From contig NZ_ML708623.1 in the NCBI RefSeq assembly GCF_008831305.1, positions 1 to 64,000 on the forward strand: a DNA stretch of 64,000 bases, read 5' to 3'. Position 1 is the first letter of the stretch; the number at the start of each line of letters is the position of its first letter. A model generated the notes under the pieces. It saw only the letters and a program-made list of their open reading frames with translations. It did no database searches and was not told the origin of the DNA. Source of the DNA: Kocuria coralli. GTDB lineage: Bacteria; Actinomycetota; Actinomycetes; Actinomycetales; Micrococcaceae. This document shows positions 8,361 to 42,722 of this stretch, piece after piece. A program made the position numbers and the translations under genes.

Positions 8361-10943
8361 GTGAAGGCTATCCGCAGGTTCACCGTACGTACTGTCCTCC
8401 CCGAGTCGATTCGCCCTCTGAGCAGGCTCGCCAACAATCTCCGCTGGTCGTGGAACAAACCCACCGAACAGCTGTTCGCTGAACTCAACCCACAGGCGTG
8501 GGACAGCGTCAACCACGATCCCGTCAAGCTCCTCGGCTCGCTCACCCGGGAAGAGATCCAGCAGATCGCCGAGGACACCGAGCTGGTGGAGCGCATCCAG
8601 GCCCTGGACGCTCAACTCGACACGTATCTGACCGAGCCGCAGTGGTACCAGCAGACCCAGCGGGCCGACGCCCCCAAGTCCATCGCCTACTTCTCCGCCG
8701 AGTACGGCATCACCTCCGTCCTTCCGCAGTACTCCGGCGGCCTGGGCATCCTGGCCGGCGACCATCTCAAGACCGCGTCCGACATGGGCGTCCCGATCGT
8801 GGGCGTCGGCCTGCTGTACCAGCACGGCTACTTCAAGCAGTCCCTGTCCCGGGATGCCTGGCAGCTCGAGGACTACCCCGTCCTGGATCCCGACGGCCTG
8901 CCCCTGAGCCTCCTGCGGGAGGAGGACGGCGCTCCCGCCCGGGTGGAGCTTCCGCTTCCCGATGGCCGCAGGCTCCTGGCGCAGATCTGGCGCGCCGACG
9001 TCGGGCGCGTCCCCCTGCTGCTGCTGGACTCCAACATCGCCGACAACGACGACCACGCCCGCAATATCACCGACCGCCTCTACGGGGGCGGCGGCGACCA
9101 CCGCCTGCAGCAGGAGCTGCTGCTCGGCATGGGCGGCGTACGGGCGCTGCGCACCTTCTCCCGCCTCACCGGAGCCCCTGAGCCCGAGGTCTTCCACTGC
9201 AACGAGGGGCACGCGGGTTTCCTCGGCATCGAGCGGATCTCCGAGCTCATGTCCGCCGAGGAGGGGCGGAAGCCCCTGTCCTGGGAGGAGGCTCTCACGG
9301 CGGTCCGCGCGGCCACGGTCTTCACCACGCACACCCCCGTCCCCGCGGGCATCGACCGTTTCGAGAAGGACCAGATCTACCGTTTCTTCTCCGCGGGCCT
9401 CGCCCCCGGAGTCCCAGCCGAGAAGATCCTCGCCCTGGGCGACGAGAACTACCCCGGCGGCGACTCCTCGAAGTTCAACATGGCGGTGATGGGCCTGCGG
9501 CTGGCTCAGCGCGCCAACGGGGTGGCCAGGCTGCACGGCAAGGTCTCACGGGAGATGTTCGCCGGGCTGTGGCCGGGATTCGAGTTCGACGAGGTCCCGA
9601 TCGGGTCGGTGACCAACGGAGTCCATGTGCCGTCCTGGATCGACCCCCGGATCGAGGCGCTGGCCGTGGACCGTTCCCAGCCCAGCCTCGAGTCCCGCTG
9701 GCGTGCGATCAACTCGATCGACGACGCCAGACTCTGGAGGATCCGCCGGGAACTGCGCGACACCCTGGTCCAGGACGTCCGGGCCCGCCTGCGGACCTCC
9801 TGGAAGAAGCGGGGTGCCGCGGATGCCGAGCTGGCCTGGACCGACTCCGTCCTCGACCCGAACGTGCTGACCATCGGCTTCGCGCGCCGGGTTCCCACCT
9901 ACAAGCGGCTGACCCTGATGCTGCGGGATCCGCAGCGGCTCAAGCGTCTGCTGCTGGACCCGCAGCGGCCCGTCCAGCTGGTGGTCGCCGGCAAGTCCCA
10001 CCCCGCGGACGAGATGGGCAAGCAGATGGTCCGCGACCTGGTGAAGTTCACGGACGACCCGGAGGTCCGCCACCGCATCGTGTTCCTGCCGAACTACGAC
10101 ATCGCCATGGCCCGCACGCTGTTCCCCGGCTGCGACGTCTGGCTGAACAATCCGCTTCGGCCCCTCGAGGCCTGCGGCACGTCCGGGATGAAGGCGGCCA
10201 TCAACGGAGGGCTCAACCTCTCCGTGCTCGACGGCTGGTGGGACGAGATGTACGACGGCCAGAACGGATGGGCGATCCCCACCGCGGACAACCGCGCCAC
10301 GGCCGAGGAGCGGGACAACATCGAGGCCGCCGCCCTCTACGAGCTGATCGAGGATCACGTCGCTCCGCGCTTCTACGGCGAGAAGATCGCCAACGGCGGC
10401 GATCAGGTCCCCCACCAGTGGCTGGCCATGGTCAAGCACACGCTCTCGACCCTGGGACCCAAGGTCTCCGCCAAGCGGATGATCGAGGACTACGTCACCG
10501 GCCTGTACGTTCCGGCGGCCCTGGCCGGCAGGACCGTGGCGGAGGAGGAGCATGCCCAGGCCCGGGAGGCCTCCCGCTGGGCGGCCCGGGTCCACGAGTC
10601 CTGGGGAGCCGTTCACGTCGAGCACGTGGAGGCGGCCGACGTGGCTGAGGTGCCGCAGATCGGCGACACCCTCCAGGTCACCGCCTATGTGCATCTCGGC
10701 AACCTGCGGCCCGAGGACGTCACCGTGGAGATCGGCTACGGCCGCGTCTCCGAGTCGGACCACATCCATGAACGCCAGTTCTCCGAACTCGACGAGCACC
10801 GCGGCACGGAGGCCGGCAAATGGGCGTTCGCGGGATCGATCACGATCGACCGGTCCGGCCCGTTCGGCTACACCGTGCGGGTGCTGCCGCACCACGAGTC
10901 GCTGACCAACCGGGCGGAGCTGGGGCTGGTGGCCAGCGCCTGA
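8361..10943 (+). CDS. glgP: Alpha-glucan phosphorylase
   Basis: PLP enzyme that releases glucose-1-phosphate from the non-reducing ends of alpha-glucan, the degradative counterpart of the divergent GlgE operon. About 860 residues, with the N-terminal DUF3417-type region of the actinobacterial form (KAIRRFTVRTVLPE) and the PLP-lysine motif EACGTSGMKAAINGG near residue 615. An in-frame GTG also exists at 8355, but GTG 8361 gives the usual MKAIRRF start and lies 6 bases after the TAGTCT box, fitting a leaderless transcript. Followed by a strong hairpin. Confidence 0.95.
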   Translation: MKAIRRFTVRTVLPESIRPLSRLANNLRWSWNKPTEQLFAELNPQAWDSVNHDPVKLLGSLTREEIQQIAEDTELVERIQALDAQLDTYLTEPQWYQQTQRADAPKSIAYFSAEYGITSVLPQYSGGLGILAGDHLKTASDMGVPIVGVGLLYQHGYFKQSLSRDAWQLEDYPVLDPDGLPLSLLREEDGAPARVELPLPDGRRLLAQIWRADVGRVPLLLLDSNIADNDDHARNITDRLYGGGGDHRLQQELLLGMGGVRALRTFSRLTGAPEPEVFHCNEGHAGFLGIERISELMSAEEGRKPLSWEEALTAVRAATVFTTHTPVPAGIDRFEKDQIYRFFSAGLAPGVPAEKILALGDENYPGGDSSKFNMAVMGLRLAQRANGVARLHGKVSREMFAGLWPGFEFDEVPIGSVTNGVHVPSWIDPRIEALAVDRSQPSLESRWRAINSIDDARLWRIRRELRDTLVQDVRARLRTSWKKRGAADAELAWTDSVLDPNVLTIGFARRVPTYKRLTLMLRDPQRLKRLLLDPQRPVQLVVAGKSHPADEMGKQMVRDLVKFTDDPEVRHRIVFLPNYDIAMARTLFPGCDVWLNNPLRPLEACGTSGMKAAINGGLNLSVLDGWWDEMYDGQNGWAIPTADNRATAEERDNIEAAALYELIEDHVAPRFYGEKIANGGDQVPHQWLAMVKHTLSTLGPKVSAKRMIEDYVTGLYVPAALAGRTVAEEEHAQAREASRWAARVHESWGAVHVEHVEAADVAEVPQIGDTLQVTAYVHLGNLRPEDVTVEIGYGRVSESDHIHERQFSELDEHRGTEAGKWAFAGSITIDRSGPFGYTVRVLPHHESLTNRAELGLVASA

Positions 10944-34118: not shown

Positions 34119-34134
34119 CGGGCGCGTTCCAGCC

Positions 34135-34194
34135 GCCGAAACCGGAGTCCGGTCGCCGATCGAAGCTGATCGGCGACCGGACTCCGGTTTCGGC
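34135..34194. repeat. Type A palindrome, copy 1 (terminator-like)
   Basis: Perfect 27-bp stem (34135-34161 with 34168-34194) and a 6-base loop, between the convergent thioesterase and monooxygenase genes. About 40 bases including GCGTTCC upstream recur at 35845-35916, on the other side of the monooxygenase gene; the core also recurs at 47621-47678. Probably a bidirectional terminator. Confidence 0.8.
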
Positions 34195-34205
34195 GCAGCG
34201 GATGG

Positions 34206-35627
34206 TCAGGCCCCGGCGAGATCCCGCGCCGGGGTGTCCGCCGTCGACGGCCGACCCGCGAACGCGCCCCGGTACTTGGCGGCCGGATGGCTGTCCAGGA
34301 CCTTGGACCGGCCCGCACCGTAGAGGTTCTCCCGGAGCGTGGAGCCCTCGTACTCGGTGCGGTAGCGCCCGCGCTTCTGCAGCTCGGGCACCACGTAGTC
34401 CACGAAGTCCTCGAAGGAGCCGGGAGAGACGTGGTAGGCCAGGTTGATACCGTCCAGGCCGCCGTCGTCGATCCAGGTCTCGAGCTGATCGGCGACTGTC
34501 TCCGGGGAACCCACCAGCACGGAGCCCATCCCGCCGATCGCGCAGTGGGCGGCGATGTCCCGGCGGGTCCACTCGCGGCTCTTGTCCTGCATGGTGAACG
34601 GGGCCAGGAAGGACTGGATGGACTCGGTCTGGACGTACTTGAGCACCTCGTCCTCGTCGAACCGTGAAAGGTCCACCCCGGACCATCCGCCGATGATCGC
34701 CTGCGAGGACTCGAGGTTCACGTACTGGAGGTAGTCGCGGTACTTCGCCTCGGCCTTGGCATCGGTCTCGTCGACCACCACCGAGAGCATCGCGTAGATC
34801 TTCAGGTCATCGCGGTCCCGCCCGGCCTCCTCGACCTTGTCCCGGAAGCGATCGGTCATGAACCGGGTGAGATCCGGGCGCAGCGCGGTGATGAAAGCCG
34901 CCTCGGCGTGCTTGCCGGCAAAGGCCTGTCCTCGGGAGGAGGCGCCGGCCTGGAAGATCAGCGGGGTCCGCTGAGGGCTGGGCTCGGTGAGGCCCGCGCC
35001 GGGAACCGTGAAGTGCTTGCCGTGATGCTGGATCGGGTGGACCAGGGCGGGATCCGCGTAGAGACCGCGCTCGCGGTCCTTGACCACCGCACCGTCCTCC
35101 CAAGATCCCTCCCAGAGCTTGTAGCAGACATCCAGGAACTCGTCGGCGATCTCATACCGCAGATCATGCTCGATCTGCTGCGGCAGCCCCTGGTTCTCGG
35201 CCGCGGAGGCCAGATAGGAGGTCACCACGTTGAAACCCACGCGACCACGGGTCAGGTGATCGAGCGTGGCGTACTTGCGGGCCAGGGTGTAGGGCTGTTC
35301 ATAGGTGACTGCGCTGGTCACGCCGAACCCCAGGCCCTGGGTCACGGCGGCCATGGCGGAGATCTGCATGAACGGATCGTTCACCGGGACCTGCGCGCCG
35401 TCGGCGATCGAGGGGGCGGCGGAGTTCTTGTAGACGTCGTAGATCCCCACCACATCGGCCAGGAACAGGGCGTCGAAACGACCGCGTTCCAGCGTCCTGG
35501 CCAGGTCCGTCCAGTATTCGATCGTGTTGTATTCGGTGGCACGTGAGCGGGGGTGACGCCACAGGCCGAAGCTCTGATGCCCTACGCAGGTCATGTCGAA
35601 GGCATTGAGGGAAATCCGCTTGCTCAC
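34206..35627 (-). CDS. Flavin-dependent monooxygenase, NtaA/SnaA/DszA (LLM) family
   Basis: Bacterial-luciferase-like TIM barrel of 473 residues that uses reduced FMN from a separate reductase. The NtaA/DszA/SnaA subgroup is indicated by LNAFDMTCVGHQSFGLWRHP, ARTLERGRFDALFLADVVG, GRVGFNVVTSYLASAAENQG and FQAGASSRGQAFAGKHAEA. GTG 35627 has AAGGAG 8 bases upstream. A SAM-IV riboswitch lies in its leader and a sulfonate-type ABC transporter diverges from it, so it most likely releases sulfite or another sulfur group from an organosulfur compound. The substrate cannot be read from the sequence, and no flavin reductase is nearby. Confidence 0.9.
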   Translation of the reverse strand: MSKRISLNAFDMTCVGHQSFGLWRHPRSRATEYNTIEYWTDLARTLERGRFDALFLADVVGIYDVYKNSAAPSIADGAQVPVNDPFMQISAMAAVTQGLGFGVTSAVTYEQPYTLARKYATLDHLTRGRVGFNVVTSYLASAAENQGLPQQIEHDLRYEIADEFLDVCYKLWEGSWEDGAVVKDRERGLYADPALVHPIQHHGKHFTVPGAGLTEPSPQRTPLIFQAGASSRGQAFAGKHAEAAFITALRPDLTRFMTDRFRDKVEEAGRDRDDLKIYAMLSVVVDETDAKAEAKYRDYLQYVNLESSQAIIGGWSGVDLSRFDEDEVLKYVQTESIQSFLAPFTMQDKSREWTRRDIAAHCAIGGMGSVLVGSPETVADQLETWIDDGGLDGINLAYHVSPGSFEDFVDYVVPELQKRGRYRTEYEGSTLRENLYGAGRSKVLDSHPAAKYRGAFAGRPSTADTPARDLAGA

Positions 35628-35709
35628 CCAGGGTCTCCTTGGAGTTCGTCCGACCCGCTCCCCGTGCCCCGCCGACGGCGGCCATCCTGCGGGTCCGGCG
35701 CTCGGCGCC

Positions 35710-35822
35710 GTACTTGCCGCACGCGGTATGTCGTGCGGCCCGATCCTCACCTGGGGCACCCCGCTACGGGGAGAGGGTTGCCGTCCGGCCAGCCAGGGCT
35801 TCGCACCGGAACTCATGATCGT
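35710..35822 (-). ncRNA. SAM-IV riboswitch
   Basis: On the minus strand the leader of the monooxygenase gene contains the SAM-binding core: P1 CGATC (35821-35817) pairs with GATCG (35745-35741); ATGAG follows P1; P2 is TCCGG/CCGGA; then CGGCAACC and GGGGTGCCCCAGGTGA. A downstream hairpin GCCGCACG/CGTGCGGC (35739-35732 with 35723-35716) ends in GTGCGGCAAG, matching the extra 3' stem and GCGGCAAG segment of SAM-IV rather than SAM-I. It begins about 12 bases after a TAGAAT box. High S-adenosylmethionine should lower expression. Confidence 0.85.
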
Positions 35823-35832
35823 TCTGGTGGCG

Positions 35833-35838
35833 ATTCTA
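35833..35838 (-). promoter_or_regulatory. -10 box TAGAAT of the SAM-IV transcript
   Basis: TAGAAT (35838-35833, minus) is placed so that transcription would begin at about 35826, just ahead of P1. The -35 position falls within the type A palindrome (35853-35916). Confidence 0.55.
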
Positions 35839-35852
35839 GCGACGCGTTCCGG

Positions 35853-35916
35853 CCGCCGAAACCGGACTCCGGTCGGCGGTCAGCGCTGATCGGCGACTGG
35901 AGTCCGGTTTCGGCGG
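35853..35916. repeat. Type A palindrome, copy 2
   Basis: 32-base arms (35853-35884 with 35885-35916) pair at all but three positions, two of which can form G-U pairs. It closely resembles copy 1 at 34135-34194 but lies between the divergent promoters, where a terminator would not be expected. Three near-tandem GCACGGG units follow at about 35920-35940. Confidence 0.75.
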
Positions 35917-35990
35917 CGGGGCACGGGGCACGGGGCACGGGACGCGGGGGCGGGGATGGCACCGCTGGGGACACCCGGCGTCACACCGAT

Positions 35991-36020
35991 TTGCCTCAAC
36001 CCGGGTCGACCGCGTTGAAT
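35991..36020 (+). promoter_or_regulatory. Putative promoter of the ssuBAC transcript
   Basis: TTGCCT (35991-35996) and TTGAAT (36015-36020) are 18 bases apart, and the S-box starts about 12 bases downstream. The -10 departs from TANNNT at position 2, so confidence is moderate. Confidence 0.4.
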
Positions 36021-36031
36021 CGCCTCGGTTC

Positions 36032-36144
36032 CCATCCAGAGCGACCGAGAGACCTGGCTCCGTGACGTCGCAGCAACCCGCAGATCGCGCCTCGCTCCGC
36101 TGAGGCCGTCAATCCGGCGTGGTGCTAACGCCAGGATTCGATGG
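36032..36144 (+). ncRNA. SAM-I (S-box) riboswitch
   Basis: P1 CCATC (36032-36036) pairs with GATGG (36140-36144). Between them lie AGAG, P2 GCGAC (36041-36045) / GTCGC (36066-36070), the kink-turn-like GAG...GGCTC, AGCAACC, and the 3' core GGTGCTAA (36121-36128). The layout with k-turn and without a SAM-IV tail indicates the S-box class. The Shine-Dalgarno GGAG (36143-36146) of the first gene overlaps the 3' strand of P1, so ligand-stabilised P1 would hide it. Confidence 0.8.
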
Positions 36145-36151
36145 AGTGGTG

Positions 36152-37018
36152 ATGACGGCTGCCCCTGCCTCGCCCTCGTTGAATGCGACCGCCGGACGCG
36201 GCACGCGCGCTTACCCCGTACAGGCCGCGACCGTGTCCTTCGACGGTGTCGGCAAGTCCTTTCCCGCCGCCCGCGGCACCAAGAGGGGCGCTTCCGCTCC
36301 CGGAGGCGGCCTCAGGCAGGTCCTCTCGGACGTCTCCTTCGACGTGGAACCCGGGCAGATCGTGTCCATCCTGGGGCCGTCGGGCTGCGGCAAGTCCACT
36401 CTCCTGCGGGCTGCCGCCGGGCTGAGCACCGCGACGGCGGGACAGGTCCGGATCGACGGCTCCCCGGTGAGCGGGATCGACCCCCGTTGCGCCGTCGGGT
36501 TCCAGGAGCCCCGGCCGCTGCCCTGGCGCTCCGTGACGGACAACGTTGCCATGGGCCTGCCCCGGGGGACGCCCAAGGCCGACGGCGGACGGCGCGTGGC
36601 CGAACTGATCGACCTGGTGGGCCTGACCGGCTCAGCGGGCCATCGCCCCGCCGAGATCTCCGGCGGTATGGCCCAGCGCGCCTCCCTGGCCAGGGCCCTG
36701 GCCCGCAATCCCGGCGTGCTGCTGCTCGACGAGCCGTTCGGCGCACTGGACGCCCTGACCAGGCTCAAGATGCAGGATCTGCTCCTGGACGTCCACGCCG
36801 CGGATCCCACGACCGTCCTGATGGTCACCCACGACGTCGAGGAGGCCCTCTACCTCTCGGACCGGGTGATCCTGCTGGGCAGCCGCGACCCCGCCGGCCC
36901 TGCCGGCATCGCCGAGGACATCAGGATCAGGGTGCCCCGTCCCCGCTCGCGCGAGGACGCCGAGCTGGCCCGGCTCCGCTCGCATCTCCTGGCCCAGCTG
37001 GGCGTCGAAGGCCACTGA
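36152..37018 (+). CDS. ssuB: Sulfonate/nitrate-type ABC transporter ATPase
   Basis: Cytosolic ATPase of an SsuABC/TauABC-like importer. 288 residues: Walker A GPSGCGKS at 75-82, Q-loop VGFQEPRPLPW, signature SGGMAQRASLARAL, Walker B LLLDEPFGALD and switch His in MVTHDVEEAL. ATG 36152 is 5 bases after GGAG; the longer frame from 36119 would lie inside the S-box. First of three genes. The SAM riboswitch points to organosulfur rather than nitrate, though the exact substrate is unknown. Confidence 0.9.
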   Translation: MTAAPASPSLNATAGRGTRAYPVQAATVSFDGVGKSFPAARGTKRGASAPGGGLRQVLSDVSFDVEPGQIVSILGPSGCGKSTLLRAAAGLSTATAGQVRIDGSPVSGIDPRCAVGFQEPRPLPWRSVTDNVAMGLPRGTPKADGGRRVAELIDLVGLTGSAGHRPAEISGGMAQRASLARALARNPGVLLLDEPFGALDALTRLKMQDLLLDVHAADPTTVLMVTHDVEEALYLSDRVILLGSRDPAGPAGIAEDIRIRVPRPRSREDAELARLRSHLLAQLGVEGH

Positions 37019-37069: not shown

Positions 37070-38110
37070 ATGGCTGATCTCTCACGACGCAATCTGCTCC
37101 GCGCCACCGGCCTGGGCGCGGCGACCCTGGCGCTGTCCGGCTGCATGGCGGGCGAGGGCGCCGGCACCGGCGTGGCCAACGCCGATTCGGCCGGGTCCAT
37201 CACCCTGGACTACGCCACGTACAACCCGCTGTCCCTGATCATCCGCAGCAAGGGCTGGCTGGAGAAGGTCGCCGACGGCATCGGGCAGTCGGTGGAGTGG
37301 GTCAACTCCGCCGGGTCCAACAAGGCCAACGAGTACCTGCGCGCCGGGGTGATCGACGTCGGTTCGACGGCCGGCTCCGCCGCGCTGCTGGCCCGCGCCA
37401 ACGGCTCCCCCATCAAGGTCATCGACATCTTCTCCCAGCCCGAATGGTCGGCACTGGTCAAGACCCCGGATTCCGATATCGACTCCGTAGCCGACCTCAA
37501 GGGCGCCTCCATCGCGGCGACCCTGGGCACGGACCCGTATTTCCTGCTGCTGCAGGCTCTCGAGACGGCCGGTCTGAGCGCAGACGACGTCTCGGTGCAG
37601 AACCTCCAGCACGCGGATGGCCGCACCGCACTGGACACCGGGCAGGTGGACGCGTGGGCGGGGCTGGACCCGATCATGGCCGCGGCCGAAGAGGGCGGGG
37701 ACCTCCTGTTCTACCGGAACCTGGACTTCAACACCTACGGCTTCCTCAACGCCAGGGAGTCCTTCCTGACGCAGAACCCGACGGGAGCCCACGCCGTCGT
37801 GAACACCTATGCGTACGCGCGCGAGTGGGCCCTGGCCCACGAGGAGGAAGCCGTGACGATCCTGGGCGAGGAAGCCGGGATCGAGCCGGGCACCGCCCAG
37901 AAGGTCTGGGAGCGGACCCACCTGGACATCGACCCCGTCCCGGGAGACGACCAGATCGCCGTCCTGGAGAACATCGGCCCGATCCTGGTCGAGTCCGGGG
38001 ACGTCTCCTCCCAGGAGAACGTCGACGATGCGCTGGCGAGCATCGTGGAGAAGAGCTATGCCGAAGCGGCCGACCGCACCGCCGTCGCCGGCGCTATCGA
38101 GGGGAACTGA
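37070..38110 (+). CDS. ssuA: ABC transporter substrate-binding lipoprotein (sulfonate type)
   Basis: 346-residue extracytoplasmic binding protein. The N-terminus SRRNLLRATG has a twin-arginine and is followed by a hydrophobic stretch and lipobox ALSGC, suggesting Tat export and lipid anchoring. The mature protein has the SsuA/NMT1-like pattern: YNPLSLIIRSKGWLEK, ANEYLRAGVIDVGSTAGSAALLARANG, ADLKGASIAATLGTDPYFLL, VDAWAGLDPIMAAAE. It lies 51 bases after ssuB and 6 bases before ssuC. Confidence 0.9.
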   Translation: MADLSRRNLLRATGLGAATLALSGCMAGEGAGTGVANADSAGSITLDYATYNPLSLIIRSKGWLEKVADGIGQSVEWVNSAGSNKANEYLRAGVIDVGSTAGSAALLARANGSPIKVIDIFSQPEWSALVKTPDSDIDSVADLKGASIAATLGTDPYFLLLQALETAGLSADDVSVQNLQHADGRTALDTGQVDAWAGLDPIMAAAEEGGDLLFYRNLDFNTYGFLNARESFLTQNPTGAHAVVNTYAYAREWALAHEEEAVTILGEEAGIEPGTAQKVWERTHLDIDPVPGDDQIAVLENIGPILVESGDVSSQENVDDALASIVEKSYAEAADRTAVAGAIEGN

Positions 38111-38116
38111 CGCACG

Positions 38117-39052
38117 ATGAGCATCAACACGGGTCCCACCCGGACCATCGACCGTAGCCGCTCCGTCCCGGAGGCCGAGAGACCCGGTGCCCTCGGCCCG
38201 GCCACGGGATCCGCTCGCGGTTCCGGCATGCCGGAGACCCCCGCCCCGGTGCGCTCCCGCGGATCGTTGTTACGCGCCGTCGCCCGCAACAAGTGGCTGG
38301 CGGGCGCGCTGGGTCTCGCCCTTCCGGTCCTCATACTGCTCCTGTGGCACACGTTGTCCTCCAACGGCACCTTCTCCCCCGTGCAGCTGCCTGCACCGAG
38401 CACCGTGCTGGCCGCCGGTGTGGAGCTGGCCCAACGCGGTGACCTGTGGTTCAACGTGGCGATCTCCGTCCAGCGGGTGGTGCTCGGCTTCCTGATCGGC
38501 TCCACGCTGGGGATGGTGCTCGGCGCACTGATCGGCCTGTCCCGCTGGGCCTCCGTGCTGGCCGGCCCGACCATCGGCGCCATACGCGCGGTCCCCTCCC
38601 TGGCCTGGGTCCCGCTGCTCATGCTGTGGATCGGCATCGGAGAGAACTCGAAGGTCACCCTCGTGGCCATCGGAGCGTTCTTCCCCGTCTACACCACCGT
38701 GTCCGCGGCCCTGAAACACGTGGACCGGCAGCTGATCGAAGCCGCTCGCTCCTTCGGGATCACGGGCCTCCAGCTCTTCTTCCAGGTGCAGCTGCCCGCC
38801 GTCCTCCCCTCCGTGATCTCGGGCCTGCGCCTGGCGCTGGCCCAGGCCTGGCTGTTCCTGGTGGCCGCCGAGCTGCTGGGCGCCGCGATGGGCCTGGGCT
38901 TCCTGCTCACGGAGTCCCAGGGCAACGGCCGCACCGACCGGCTGCTGCTCGCCATCCTGCTGCTGGCGATCCTGGGCAAGCTCTCCGATGCCCTGGTGGG
39001 CGTCTTCGAGCGCTGGGCGGCCCGCCGGTGGGGCGCGGCGCCCGCGGCCTGA
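38117..39052 (+). CDS. ssuC: ABC transporter permease (sulfonate type)
   Basis: 311-residue inner-membrane permease with about six transmembrane helices after a polar N-terminal 60 residues. The family loop that contacts the ATPase is visible as EAARSFGITGLQLFFQVQLPAVLPSVISGLRLALAQAW, in the SsuC/TauC style, preceded by RAVPSLAWVPLLMLWIG. ATG 38117 lies 6 bases after the ssuA stop. Last gene of the riboswitch-controlled operon. Confidence 0.91.
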   Translation: MSINTGPTRTIDRSRSVPEAERPGALGPATGSARGSGMPETPAPVRSRGSLLRAVARNKWLAGALGLALPVLILLLWHTLSSNGTFSPVQLPAPSTVLAAGVELAQRGDLWFNVAISVQRVVLGFLIGSTLGMVLGALIGLSRWASVLAGPTIGAIRAVPSLAWVPLLMLWIGIGENSKVTLVAIGAFFPVYTTVSAALKHVDRQLIEAARSFGITGLQLFFQVQLPAVLPSVISGLRLALAQAWLFLVAAELLGAAMGLGFLLTESQGNGRTDRLLLAILLLAILGKLSDALVGVFERWAARRWGAAPAA

Positions 39053-39140: not shown

Positions 39141-41282
39141 ATGACCAGCCCGGCCCGCCACTCGTTCTCCGATCCGCTGAACCCCACGCCCAACCCGGCG
39201 CTGGTCTCCGACGACGACCGGGTGGCCTTCTGGGCCCGTCAGGCCGGACGCCTGGACTGGGCCGAGCCCTGGCATACGACCCACCGCTTCGACCGCCCAC
39301 GGATCATCGGCCAGGACGACGACGGCAACCCCACCTACTCCGTCCCGGAGATCGCCTGGTTCGAAGGCGGGAAGCTCAACGTCGCCTACAACTGCGTGGA
39401 CCGGCACGTGGAGGCCGGGCGGGGCAACCACGTGGCCCTGTACTTCGAGGGCGAGCCGGGCGACCAGCTCGTCTACACCTACGCCGACCTGCAGCGGGAG
39501 GTCTCCCGGGCGGCCAACGCCCTGCTCGGACTGGGCGTCGGCAAGGGCGACCGGGTGGTGATCTACCTGCCGGTGATCCCCGAGACCGTGATCATCACCC
39601 TGGCCTGCGCGAGGATCGGGGCGGTGCATTCGCTGGTCTTCGGCGGGTTCTCGGCAGAGGCGCTGAAGTTCCGCGTGGAGGACACCGGCGCCAAGGTGCT
39701 CGTGACCACCGACGGGCAGAACCGCCGCGGCAAGGTGGTGCCCGTCAAGGCCGATGCGGACGAGGCCTGCACCGGCGAGAACCGGATCGAGCACGTGATC
39801 GTCGTCCGCCGCACCTCCCGGCCGGGTAACAAGCAGCTGGCGGCGGGCACCCGCGGGTCGCGGTCCAACGACGAGCTCGAGGTCCCCTGGACGCCGGGGC
39901 GCGACGTGTGGTGGCACGACCTGGTCAAAGACGCCTCGCCCGTGCACGAACCCGAGTCCTTCGACGCCGAGACCCCGCTGTTCATCATCTACACCTCCGG
40001 AACCACGGGGCGCCCCAAAGGCCTGGTCCACACGATGGGCGGCTACCTGGTGCAGACCGCCTACACCCACGCCCTGCTGTTCGACCTGCTGCCCGACGTC
40101 GAGGACGGCAACGGCACGCTGCGCCCCGACGAGCTGTCCACCGTGAACGATCCGGCCAAGGTGGACTCCACCGTCCACTGGTGCACGGCGGACCTGGCCT
40201 GGGTCACCGCGCACACCTACGAGATCTACGGCCCCCTGGTCAACGGCGTCTCCGAGGTGATCTACGAGGGCACCCCGAACACACCCCACCCCGGCAGGCA
40301 CTTCGAGGTCATCGAACGCTACGGGGTGACCAACTACTACACCGCGCCCACCCTGATCCGCTCGCTCATGGGGGCCTTCCCCCACGGGATCCCGCAGATC
40401 TACAACCTGTCCTCGATCCGCCTGCTGGGCTCCGTCGGGGAGTCGATCAATCCGGAGGCCTGGAGGTGGCTGCGTCATCAGATCGGCCGGGATGAGGTGC
40501 CGTTCGTGGACACGTGGTGGCAGTCGGAGACCGGCTCCTGCGTGGCCTCCCCGCGCCCCCACGACCCCCAGTTCGCCCCCGCCGGGACCTTCGCCGCCGG
40601 CACGCCGCGCACCACGGTCAAGCCGGGGTGCGCCACGCGCGCGATCCCCGGTGTATCGGTCCGTGTGCTGGACGAGGCGGGCCGGGAGGTCGGACCCGAT
40701 CAGCAGGGCCTGGCGGTCGTCGACGCCATCGGGCCCTCCATGGCCCGGACGGTGTGGGGCGACCCCCAGCGCTACCTGAACTCCTACTGGGCGCAGTACG
40801 GCGAGCGCGGCTGGTTCCTGGCCGGCGACGGGGCACGGACCGATGCCGAGGGCGACCTCTACATCCTGGGACGGGTGGACGACGTCATCAATGTCTCCGG
40901 CCACCGGCTGTCCACGATCGAGATCGAGTCGGCGCTGGTGACCCACCCGTTCGTCGTCGAGGCCGGCACCACGCCCGTCGAGGACCCGCTCACGGGTCAC
41001 GCCGTGCTCGCGTGCGTCGTGCTCAACGACGACGGACTGGCGCTGACCGAGACCGAGCTGCACGCCGAGCTGTGCGCCCACGTCACCCGGGAGATCGGCC
41101 CCATCGCCAAGCCGCGCGAGGTGGTCGCCGTGCCGGACCTGCCCAAGACGCGCTCGGGTAAGATCACCCGGCGGCTGCTGGCCCAGCTCTACGAGGGCAA
41201 GCCCCTGGGCGATCGTTCCTCGTTGCAGAACGAGGAGGCCCTGGACGCCATCGCACGGGCCATGGCGGACCGCCGCTCGTAG
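39141..41282 (+). CDS. acs: Acetyl-CoA synthetase
   Basis: AMP-forming acyl-CoA synthetase that activates acetate (or propionate). 713 residues: YTSGTTGRPKGLVHT (P-loop), VDTWWQSETGS, GRVDDVINVSGHRLSTIEIE and the C-terminal PKTRSGKITRR, whose lysine is the usual acetylation site. An insertion of about 25 residues (VEDGNGTLRPDELSTVND) lies after the P-loop region, somewhat longer than in the E. coli enzyme. GAGGA is about 10 bases before ATG 39141. The gene lies 88 bases after ssuC and probably has its own promoter. Confidence 0.93.
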   Translation: MTSPARHSFSDPLNPTPNPALVSDDDRVAFWARQAGRLDWAEPWHTTHRFDRPRIIGQDDDGNPTYSVPEIAWFEGGKLNVAYNCVDRHVEAGRGNHVALYFEGEPGDQLVYTYADLQREVSRAANALLGLGVGKGDRVVIYLPVIPETVIITLACARIGAVHSLVFGGFSAEALKFRVEDTGAKVLVTTDGQNRRGKVVPVKADADEACTGENRIEHVIVVRRTSRPGNKQLAAGTRGSRSNDELEVPWTPGRDVWWHDLVKDASPVHEPESFDAETPLFIIYTSGTTGRPKGLVHTMGGYLVQTAYTHALLFDLLPDVEDGNGTLRPDELSTVNDPAKVDSTVHWCTADLAWVTAHTYEIYGPLVNGVSEVIYEGTPNTPHPGRHFEVIERYGVTNYYTAPTLIRSLMGAFPHGIPQIYNLSSIRLLGSVGESINPEAWRWLRHQIGRDEVPFVDTWWQSETGSCVASPRPHDPQFAPAGTFAAGTPRTTVKPGCATRAIPGVSVRVLDEAGREVGPDQQGLAVVDAIGPSMARTVWGDPQRYLNSYWAQYGERGWFLAGDGARTDAEGDLYILGRVDDVINVSGHRLSTIEIESALVTHPFVVEAGTTPVEDPLTGHAVLACVVLNDDGLALTETELHAELCAHVTREIGPIAKPREVVAVPDLPKTRSGKITRRLLAQLYEGKPLGDRSSLQNEEALDAIARAMADRRS

Positions 41283-41402: not shown

Positions 41403-42722
41403 ATGGCTGAGCACCAGTTCGGGTTCCGCACCCGGGCACTGCACGCCGGTGGCACGCCCGACGCCGAGCACGGCGCGCGCGCGGTTCCGATCTACCAGAC
41501 CAGTTCGTTCGTGTTCAAGGACGCCGACGACGCCGCCAACCTCTTCGCGCTGCAGAAGTACGGCAATATCTACTCGCGGATCGGCAACCCCACGGTGGCG
41601 GCCTTCGAGGAGCGCATCGCCTCGCTCGAAGGCGGCATCGGCGCCGTGGCCACCGCCTCGGGCATGGCGGCGGAGTTCATCACCTTCGCCGCGCTGTGCG
41701 GGTACGGCGACCACGTGGTCGCCTCCTCCCAGCTGTACGGCGGGACGGTGACGCAGCTTGACGTGACCCTGCGCCGCTTCGGCGTGGAGAACACGTTCGT
41801 GCCGGGCACCGACCCGGCCGACTTCAAGGCCGCCCTCCGGCCGGAGACCAAGGCGGTCTACACCGAGCTGGTGGCCAACCCCTCGGGCGAGGTGGCGGAT
41901 CTGGCGGGGCTGGCCGCCGTCGCGCACGAGGCCGGGGTTCCGCTGATCGTGGACGCGACGCTGAACACCCCGTACCTTTCACGGCCGCTCGAACACGGCG
42001 CGGACATCGTGATCCACTCGGCCACCAAGTTCCTGGGCGGGCACGGCACGACCCTGGGCGGCGTGGTGGTCGAGTCCGGCCGGTTCGACTGGGGCAACGG
42101 GAACTTCCCGTCCATGACCGAGCCCGTCCCCTCCTACAACGGCGTGAGCTGGTGGGGGAACTTCGGCGAGTACGGGTTCCTGACCAAGCTGCGGTCGGAG
42201 CAGCTGCGCGACATCGGCCCGGCTCTGGCCCCGCAGTCCGCCTGGAACCTGCTCCAAGGGGTGGAGACGCTGCCGCAGCGCATGGACGCGCACGTGGCCA
42301 ACGCACGGCAGGTCGCCGAGTGGCTGGACTCCGACCCGCGCGTGGCCTACGTCAACTACGCCGGGCTCCCGGGGCATCCGCACCACGAGCGGGCGCGGAA
42401 GTACCTGCCGGACGGCGTGGGCTCCGTCTTCGCCTTCGGTGTGGCCGGCACGGCCGAGCGCTCGCCCCGCGAGGTCGACGCGCGGTTCATCGAAGGCCTC
42501 CAGCTGGCCTCCCACCTGGCCAACATCGGGGACGCCCGGACCCTGGTACTGCATCCGGCATCGACGACCCACCAGCAGCTGACCCCCGAACAGCTCGCCT
42601 CGGGCGGTGTGGGCGAGGACCTCATCCGCATCTCGGTGGGTCTCGAGGATCCCGCGGACATCCTGTGGGATCTCGACCAGGCACTGACGGCAGCCACGGG
42701 CCTGACCCGCGAGCAGAACTGA
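41403..42722 (+). CDS. metY: O-acetylhomoserine (thiol)-lyase
   Basis: PLP enzyme making homocysteine directly from O-acetylhomoserine and sulfide. 439 residues with YSRIGNPT, ASGMAAEFITFAAL, the PLP lysine in HSATKFLGGHGT, and the long SWWGNFGEYGFLTKLRSEQLRDIG segment typical of this family rather than of MetB. ATG 41403 has AGGAGG 6 bases upstream. Followed after 11 bases by its usual partner, a CoA-binding-domain protein. Together with the trans-sulfuration enzyme at 22938-24089 it gives two routes to homocysteine. Confidence 0.94.
   Translation: MAEHQFGFRTRALHAGGTPDAEHGARAVPIYQTSSFVFKDADDAANLFALQKYGNIYSRIGNPTVAAFEERIASLEGGIGAVATASGMAAEFITFAALCGYGDHVVASSQLYGGTVTQLDVTLRRFGVENTFVPGTDPADFKAALRPETKAVYTELVANPSGEVADLAGLAAVAHEAGVPLIVDATLNTPYLSRPLEHGADIVIHSATKFLGGHGTTLGGVVVESGRFDWGNGNFPSMTEPVPSYNGVSWWGNFGEYGFLTKLRSEQLRDIGPALAPQSAWNLLQGVETLPQRMDAHVANARQVAEWLDSDPRVAYVNYAGLPGHPHHERARKYLPDGVGSVFAFGVAGTAERSPREVDARFIEGLQLASHLANIGDARTLVLHPASTTHQQLTPEQLASGGVGEDLIRISVGLEDPADILWDLDQALTAATGLTREQN

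Follow-up and report, generated by a model that had tools for sequence, protein, structure and literature searches.

A P4-less SAM-I-type aptamer and a SAM-IV aptamer ahead of divergent organosulfur genes in Kocuria coralli

In Kocuria coralli two sets of putative organosulfur genes diverge from a single spacer, for which a preliminary description had proposed two riboswitches of different classes, one in each direction and both for S-adenosylmethionine (SAM). The question raised by such a locus is what these two RNAs are, and whether both operons would be shut by the same metabolite. We have examined a stretch of 64 kb containing the spacer (hereafter the window), in which Rfam 15, at its gathering thresholds, found two riboswitches, both located in this one spacer, and three tRNAs. 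The nearest relatives with names are Kocuria, the monooxygenase encoded to the left being 95% identical to that of Kocuria subflava. Our reading, which we hold to be very probable, is that the spacer carries two SAM OFF switches, each leading its own divergent transcript, that would jointly shut the organosulfur genes. With the class membership of both RNAs and their conserved core bases at hand, joint shut-off by SAM appears the best reading of the locus, as a proposal.

Two SAM-clan aptamers of different architecture

The leftward element (35705..35820, minus strand) was recognized by cmscan as a SAM-IV aptamer (RF00634) over the full length of the model (positions 1–116), with 97.1 bits against a gathering threshold of 38 and an E value of 1.8e-16. 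It has P5 and the pseudoknot PK-2 and no P4, as the class requires, and its helices covary among 16 Kocuria leaders. In P5, four of the ten pairs changed on both sides, with 84.4% of the cells paired. PK-1 joins the P2b loop (CCUGG, 35793–35797) with the strand located before the 3' side of P1 (CCAGG, 35750..35754, minus strand); its five pairs are all kept and one of them is double-changed in 5/16 leaders. The four pairs of PK-2, between its 3' strand (35708..35711, minus strand) and the P3 loop (35766–35769), are invariant in 16/16 leaders and therefore give no evidence of covariation.

The rightward element (36029..36147, plus strand) scored 51.0 bits with the SAM-I (S-box) model RF00162 (gathering threshold 44.4, E 8.8e-9). 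The Infernal comparison with Rfam that the preliminary description had suggested leaves both regions above their thresholds, a SAM-IV element before the flavin monooxygenase gene and an S-box ahead of ssuBAC, with ends 2–5 nt from those given there. The claim that the S-box follows its class in the order of stems did not hold, since helix P4 is missing, and of the label S-box/SAM-I we retain the SAM clan and the match to RF00162 but not the canonical form. In the cmscan alignment, the 18 model positions of P4 are swapped for 3 nt. The distance from GGUGC to the 3' strand of P1 (GAU) was 12–14 nt in 108/108 elements, against 27–31 nt in 6/6 Bacillota controls; it was 13–14 nt in all 78 elements of the genus, that of the window included, and in 13/13 from named loci, and 12–14 nt in 17/17 others, 15 of them from six other families of the order and two from Nesterenkonia. 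This test omitted the named Kocuria loci except K. palustris, as duplicates, and one of the 16 hits from other families (G031:C1:408491). When the search was extended to the whole class, 28 of the best 30 loci kept a spacing of 23–53 nt, and the other two (L263 and L284) gave a false value because of a second GGUGC near P1. Six lower-scoring complete loci of the class were P4-less in four cases from other orders and one from the same family, and canonical in one; one of the four from other orders is weak, with GGCGC replacing GGUGC. Judged by these spacings, the P4-less form is usual in the order and is not confined to it.

The rest of the rightward aptamer is kept. We aligned 45 of the 58 representatives from the spacing test, and the pseudoknot between loop 2 (CCUGG, 36053..36057, plus strand) and J3/4 (CCAGG, 36131–36135) had three of its five pairs double-changed, with 99.1% of the cells paired. 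Like in the pseudoknot, both-sided changes were found in P2a (4/5 pairs), and no pair of P1 or P3 changed on both sides; both helices hardly vary and thus give little covariation. The element of the window has AGAG, GCAACC, GGUGC and GAU, which we take to be the core bases that contact SAM. Over the 45 sequences there is little or no variation in GAG, GCAACC or CAGCAACC, GGUGC and GAU, and the first A of AGAG varies. The GA steps expected of a kink-turn in P2, judged from sequence only, are also present (5' side G in 41/45 and A in 45/45; 3' side G in 44/45 and A in 45/45). R1, a covariance model that we built for the P4-less form, gave 88.5 bits to the element of the window, which belongs to its training set, and 91.4 bits to another element of the K. 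coralli genome, outside the training set (G000:C7:118899-119008, before a MetE-like gene), that had 41.2 bits with RF00162, i.e., below the cut-off. Five held-out P4-less elements scored 62.3–87.6 and 37 canonical ones 32.3–61.9, so that the two populations separate, barely at the boundary. The SAM-I/IV model RF01725 had no match in the genome even at E <= 1. We had also considered that the S-box pseudoknot had moved to a place like that of SAM-IV, and discarded it: the Bacillota controls share, by eye, a CUGG/CCAG-type position before P4, indicating that P4 is simply missing. With P4 absent, the pseudoknot covarying and RF01725 negative, we place the rightward element in the SAM clan as a SAM-I variant without P4 and do not call it canonical SAM-I. 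In another locus (L159, uncultured Nesterenkonia) two P4-less SAM-I elements are divergent from each other (8478-8589, minus strand, and 8711-8810, plus strand).

Genes behind the aptamers and conservation of the pair

The gene to the left (34206..35627, minus strand, GTG start) codes for an FMN-dependent, luciferase-like monooxygenase of the NtaA/DmoA family (TIGR03860, 540 bits, cut-off 280; PF00296). To the right follow ssuB, an ABC transporter ATPase (36152..37018, ATG at 36152, with GTG 36149 as possible start), ssuA, the aliphatic sulfonate substrate-binding protein (37070..38110; TIGR01728, 195.5 bits, cut-off 163.5), the permease gene ssuC (38117..39052; best model SsuC PRK11365, below the equivalog cut-off), an AcsA-like acetate-CoA ligase (39141..41282; NF001208, 756.7 bits, cut-off 657), metY, an O-acetylhomoserine sulfhydrylase (41403..42722; TIGR01326, 571.7 bits, cut-off 495), all on the plus strand, and a gene for a CoA-binding protein. 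The aliphatic-sulfonate transporter model ranked second for SsuB and first for SsuC, below the equivalog cut-off. The names given before to the genes downstream of both elements were right at family level (TIGR03860 and SsuA-family scores). The desulfonation that had been attributed to the monooxygenase is unsupported, because it is not an SsuD (TIGR03565, 74.6 bits against a cut-off of 518), and the SfnG model also scored far under its cut-off. Acetate is set free by MetY, and a ligase next to it could recapture this acetate, which would account for the position of the ligase gene in the operon.

We searched 39 genomes, 25 of them of the genus (Kocuria coralli included), with RF00162 and RF00634, and found SAM-I in 29/39 and SAM-IV in 33/39. 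Among the 25 genus genomes, 19 carry SAM-IV ahead of the monooxygenase gene. None of these 19 lacks a divergent SAM-I upstream, and the gene behind this SAM-I is ssuB in 13 genomes and that of the acetate-CoA ligase in 6. The gap between the two elements ranges from 95 to 2892 nt, being of 208 nt or less in 7/19 genomes and of 630–2892 nt in 12/19. In the other six genus genomes, the monooxygenase homologue is absent or has 36–44% identity. A 44% homologue at G024:C194:37-1419, a frame with one stop, has a SAM-IV match about 1.5 kb off on the same strand. We analyzed besides 38 named loci of Kocuria/Rothia type (the titles include one Curtobacterium, one Canibacter and one Micrococcaceae), with SAM-IV before the monooxygenase gene in 36; the exceptions, Rothia santali and R. 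halotolerans, keep the divergent SAM-I. Where the flank retrieved includes a divergent homologue of ssuB or of the ligase gene (acs), SAM-I is present in 28/29 loci; the nine loci whose flank has no such homologue all lack SAM-I, and for two of them the upstream flank is short (L106, 1234 nt; L121, 234 nt). Both classes were present in 26/38. The survey of relatives proposed at the outset thus shows a pair kept in the genus and in many Rothia-type relatives, and the Rfam matches together with the pairing in 19/19 genomes uphold the central claim that two SAM-clan aptamers of different architecture head divergent sulfur operons. Since the ligase gene follows the SAM-I leader where ssuBAC is missing, SAM-I is tied, on this distribution, to the operon rather than to whichever gene comes first in it. 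Four genomes (G008, G009, G015 and G022) have divergent SAM-IV/SAM-IV pairs 258–294 nt apart, one element of each being weak (34.8–38.2 bits); those of G009, G015 and G022 precede two uncharacterised gene families.

The genus table comprised 162 elements, 78 SAM-I and 84 SAM-IV, ten of them below threshold (6 SAM-I and 4 SAM-IV), with one SAM-I hit (G009:C1:1729292) of 79 left out; downstream genes of SAM-IV were tabulated for all hits in 13 genomes and for the best or paired hits only in the other 12. In this table the monooxygenase gene (19 cases) and metQ (13) follow SAM-IV alone, and ssuB (15), the ligase gene (6), a MetE-like gene (20) and an acyl-CoA-dehydrogenase-like gene named by eye (9) follow SAM-I alone. 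One metY paralogue has SAM-IV in 23/23 cases and the metY type of the window has SAM-I in 13/13, and a third group of MetY type has both classes (9 SAM-IV, 1 SAM-I). Before the metY of the window itself neither RF00162 nor R1 finds a SAM-I, in contrast to 13 other Kocuria genomes that have one. Elsewhere in the K. coralli genome, elements precede two more MetY-family genes, metF, metQ and the MetE-like gene. The metF homologues have P4-less SAM-I in 13 Kocuria genomes and SAM-IV in four others (G006, G010, G012 and G023). In Bacillota, homologues of the monooxygenase have a SAM-I on the same strand, 122–1335 nt upstream, in 16 of 17 scanned (of 18, L154 was left out), and these 16 are 50–54% identical to that of the window. 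With metF mixed and the Bacillota homologues following SAM-I, the riboswitch class before a homologous gene, as assigned by the models, changes between lineages. At L005 (3-1715, minus strand), the metF frame runs without a stop into the start of the MetE-like gene, a possible MetF-MetE fusion.

Proposed control of the two transcripts and rival readings

The rightward aptamer appears to occupy nearly the entire 5' leader, its end being 4 nt from the start codon of ssuB. The motif GAUGGAG (36140..36146, plus strand) contains the 3' strand of P1 (36140–36144, partner 36032–36036) and the Shine-Dalgarno GGAG (36143–36146), an arrangement found in 21/21 Kocuria ssuB/acs leaders. Stabilization of P1 by SAM would sequester this Shine-Dalgarno, ribosomes would be excluded, and the products of ssuBAC, acs and metY, which are probably cotranscribed, would not be made. 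A block of translation through a ribosome-binding site held in P1 is already described for actinobacterial SAM-I in the parts of PMC2258182 available to us. In energy models of the 21 leaders the aptamer fold lies 0.4–7.8 kcal/mol above the ligand-free minimum, a gap that the ligand and the pseudoknot could supply. Modelled without ligand, the Shine-Dalgarno of the window is mostly paired (unpaired 0.18), what speaks against a wide ON/OFF range, and the folding energy of the ssuB leader is not lower than that of shuffled sequences (z 0.34). On the other side SAM-IV heads the FMN monooxygenase gene and would repress it when SAM is high, so that a full methionine/SAM pool would shut organosulfur uptake, oxidation and sulfhydrylation together.

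In the leader of the monooxygenase gene there are 64 nt from the end of the SAM-IV aptamer to the Shine-Dalgarno-like AAGGAG read from the sequence (35635..35640, minus strand). The consensus fold of 16 Kocuria leaders (RNAalifold) pairs the PK-2 3' strand with a downstream GCGCYG strand, giving a possible anti-PK-2 hairpin (CGGCGC with GCGCCG, 35696..35710, minus strand) of six pairs with one-sided changes only, and the helix was significantly longer than in shuffled sequences in 0/19 Kocuria and 0/16 Rothia-type monooxygenase leaders. A conserved stem, GACCCGC/GCGGGUC (35652..35695, minus strand), follows, with 99.1% of the cells paired and one pair double-changed in one sequence. A further pairing suggested by RNAalifold, of the 5' strand of P1 with early codons of the monooxygenase gene, was rejected, as its sole double change is a synonymous change of a single clade and by eye it is not fully kept in Rothia-type sequences. 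Bound SAM would probably trap the PK-2 3' strand and so free the downstream one. PK-2 takes part in the switching of SAM-I/IV riboswitches. The leader could act on transcription, by a terminator, by Rho or by a terminator without U run, instead of translation, and we see this as a real possibility, somewhat short of an even chance. In 5/16 Rothia-type monooxygenase leaders, the strand that might capture the PK-2 strand also forms the 5' side of a stable hairpin with TTTT behind it, and a U-tailed hairpin follows the aptamer in 4/4 SAM-IV metF leaders of Kocuria (G006, G010, G012 and G023). These hairpins hint at the PK-2 strand as the one that switches in the SAM-IV leader. A premature transcription unit with a predicted SAM-IV is also reported for Streptomyces clavuligerus in the portion of PMC8269248 available to us. 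Against a transcriptional action, the SAM-IV leader of the window has no intrinsic terminator or other U-tailed hairpin, and none of the 19 Kocuria monooxygenase leaders has, within 150 nt, a T run like that of the metF leaders. Models of the translational alternative gave nearly the same opening of the Shine-Dalgarno in both aptamer states for the window (0.53 and 0.52), and in 5/16 leaders it was more open by over 0.3 in the aptamer state, opposite to what an OFF switch requires.

A DNA-binding sulfur regulator acting in the spacer might mainly co-regulate both genes and leave to the RNAs a secondary tuning. Divergent promoters in one spacer would suit it, and so would the 72-bp near-perfect palindrome located between them (35849..35920; 36-nt arms, 89% complementary). 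Each element had been credited with its own -10 box, and both are seen by eye, TAGAAT for the SAM-IV transcript (35833..35838, minus strand) and ATTTGC (35989–35994) with TTGAAT (36015–36020) for the SAM-I transcript (plus strand), the latter as ATTTGC...TTSAAT largely kept across 16 Kocuria leaders, but a strict sigma-70 scan recovered neither. However, the palindrome is a dispersed repeat found in 11 places of the genome (three pairs are 0.9–1.8 kb apart), so it is no operator peculiar to the spacer, and both riboswitches are kept in the 12/19 genomes where 630–2892 nt separate them. We consider such a regulator improbable. By position, the palindrome runs into the place where the -35 of the monooxygenase promoter is expected. 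A second copy (34129-34195) lies just beyond the 3' end of this gene, and the two copies bracket the gene and the SAM-IV riboswitch. Matches to microRNA families at 35835–35933, all far under their thresholds, are due to the palindrome and were discarded. We consider quite improbable that SAM-IV is the sole working switch and the weaker SAM-I a decayed S-box. The score of only 51.0 bits, the absence of P4 and the Shine-Dalgarno modelled as mostly paired even without ligand would fit decay, but the P4-less spacing is uniform in the 108 elements, many of them ahead of methionine genes, the core bases are kept, the pseudoknot covaries, and R1 scores highly an untrained element of the same genome that RF00162 leaves below its cut-off. 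Finally, a periphery unlike that of canonical SAM-I might mean that the P4-less element senses a relative of SAM, e.g., S-adenosylhomocysteine; the near invariance of GAG, GCAACC or CAGCAACC, GGUGC and GAU, and genes for sulfur and methionine uptake and synthesis that fit SAM feedback, make this hardly credible. The two aptamers are best read, from class and core bases, as putative SAM-binding OFF switches.

Comparison with known SAM riboswitches

One genus has here two receptor architectures for one ligand with a largely fixed assignment to genes, and metF and the monooxygenase gene indicate that the class ahead of a homologous gene can change nevertheless. Such an arrangement allows a direct comparison, set up by nature, that bears on why cells retain several classes of SAM riboswitch. 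The part of SAM-I that nature can dispense with is suggested by the P4-less form, and elements of this kind can escape the Rfam threshold. As a broader and rather doubtful proposal, P4-less SAM-I might be an undescribed clade-wide subclass, the usual S-box of the order, and the Kocuria/Rothia spacer a conserved two-sensor device of differing affinities, in which uptake and oxidation would shut in sequence as SAM rises. The searched literature, represented in part by partial texts and with the SAM-IV discovery paper outside its scope, yielded neither a divergent SAM-I/SAM-IV pair nor a P4-less SAM-I, and the novelty of both is provisional.

SAM-I and SAM-IV occur together in the genome of another actinobacterium, Streptomyces lividans TK24, where, in the sections of PMC8079986 available to us, they are found in separate places before other genes and not in one spacer. 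With the SAM-IV family RF00634 the leftward aptamer shares the full length, PK-1, PK-2, P5 and the absence of P4, and we saw no difference in the aptamer; the NtaA/DmoA monooxygenase target and the divergent partner were not met in the literature searched. SAM-I/IV (RF01725) belongs to the same clan and has the same binding core, according to the parts available of PMC6890682 and PMC2864571, and the rightward element differs from it in retaining the internal loop of P2 and in having no P5 or PK-2. Compared with SAM-I (RF00162), the rightward element has no P4 hairpin and its CCUGG/CCAGG pseudoknot lies a few nt from P1, but it shares the core bases, the kink-turn-like P2 loop, P3 and the pseudoknot between loop 2 and J3/4 and, like the SAM-I in the available parts of PMC2258182, has the ribosome-binding site in the 3' strand of P1.
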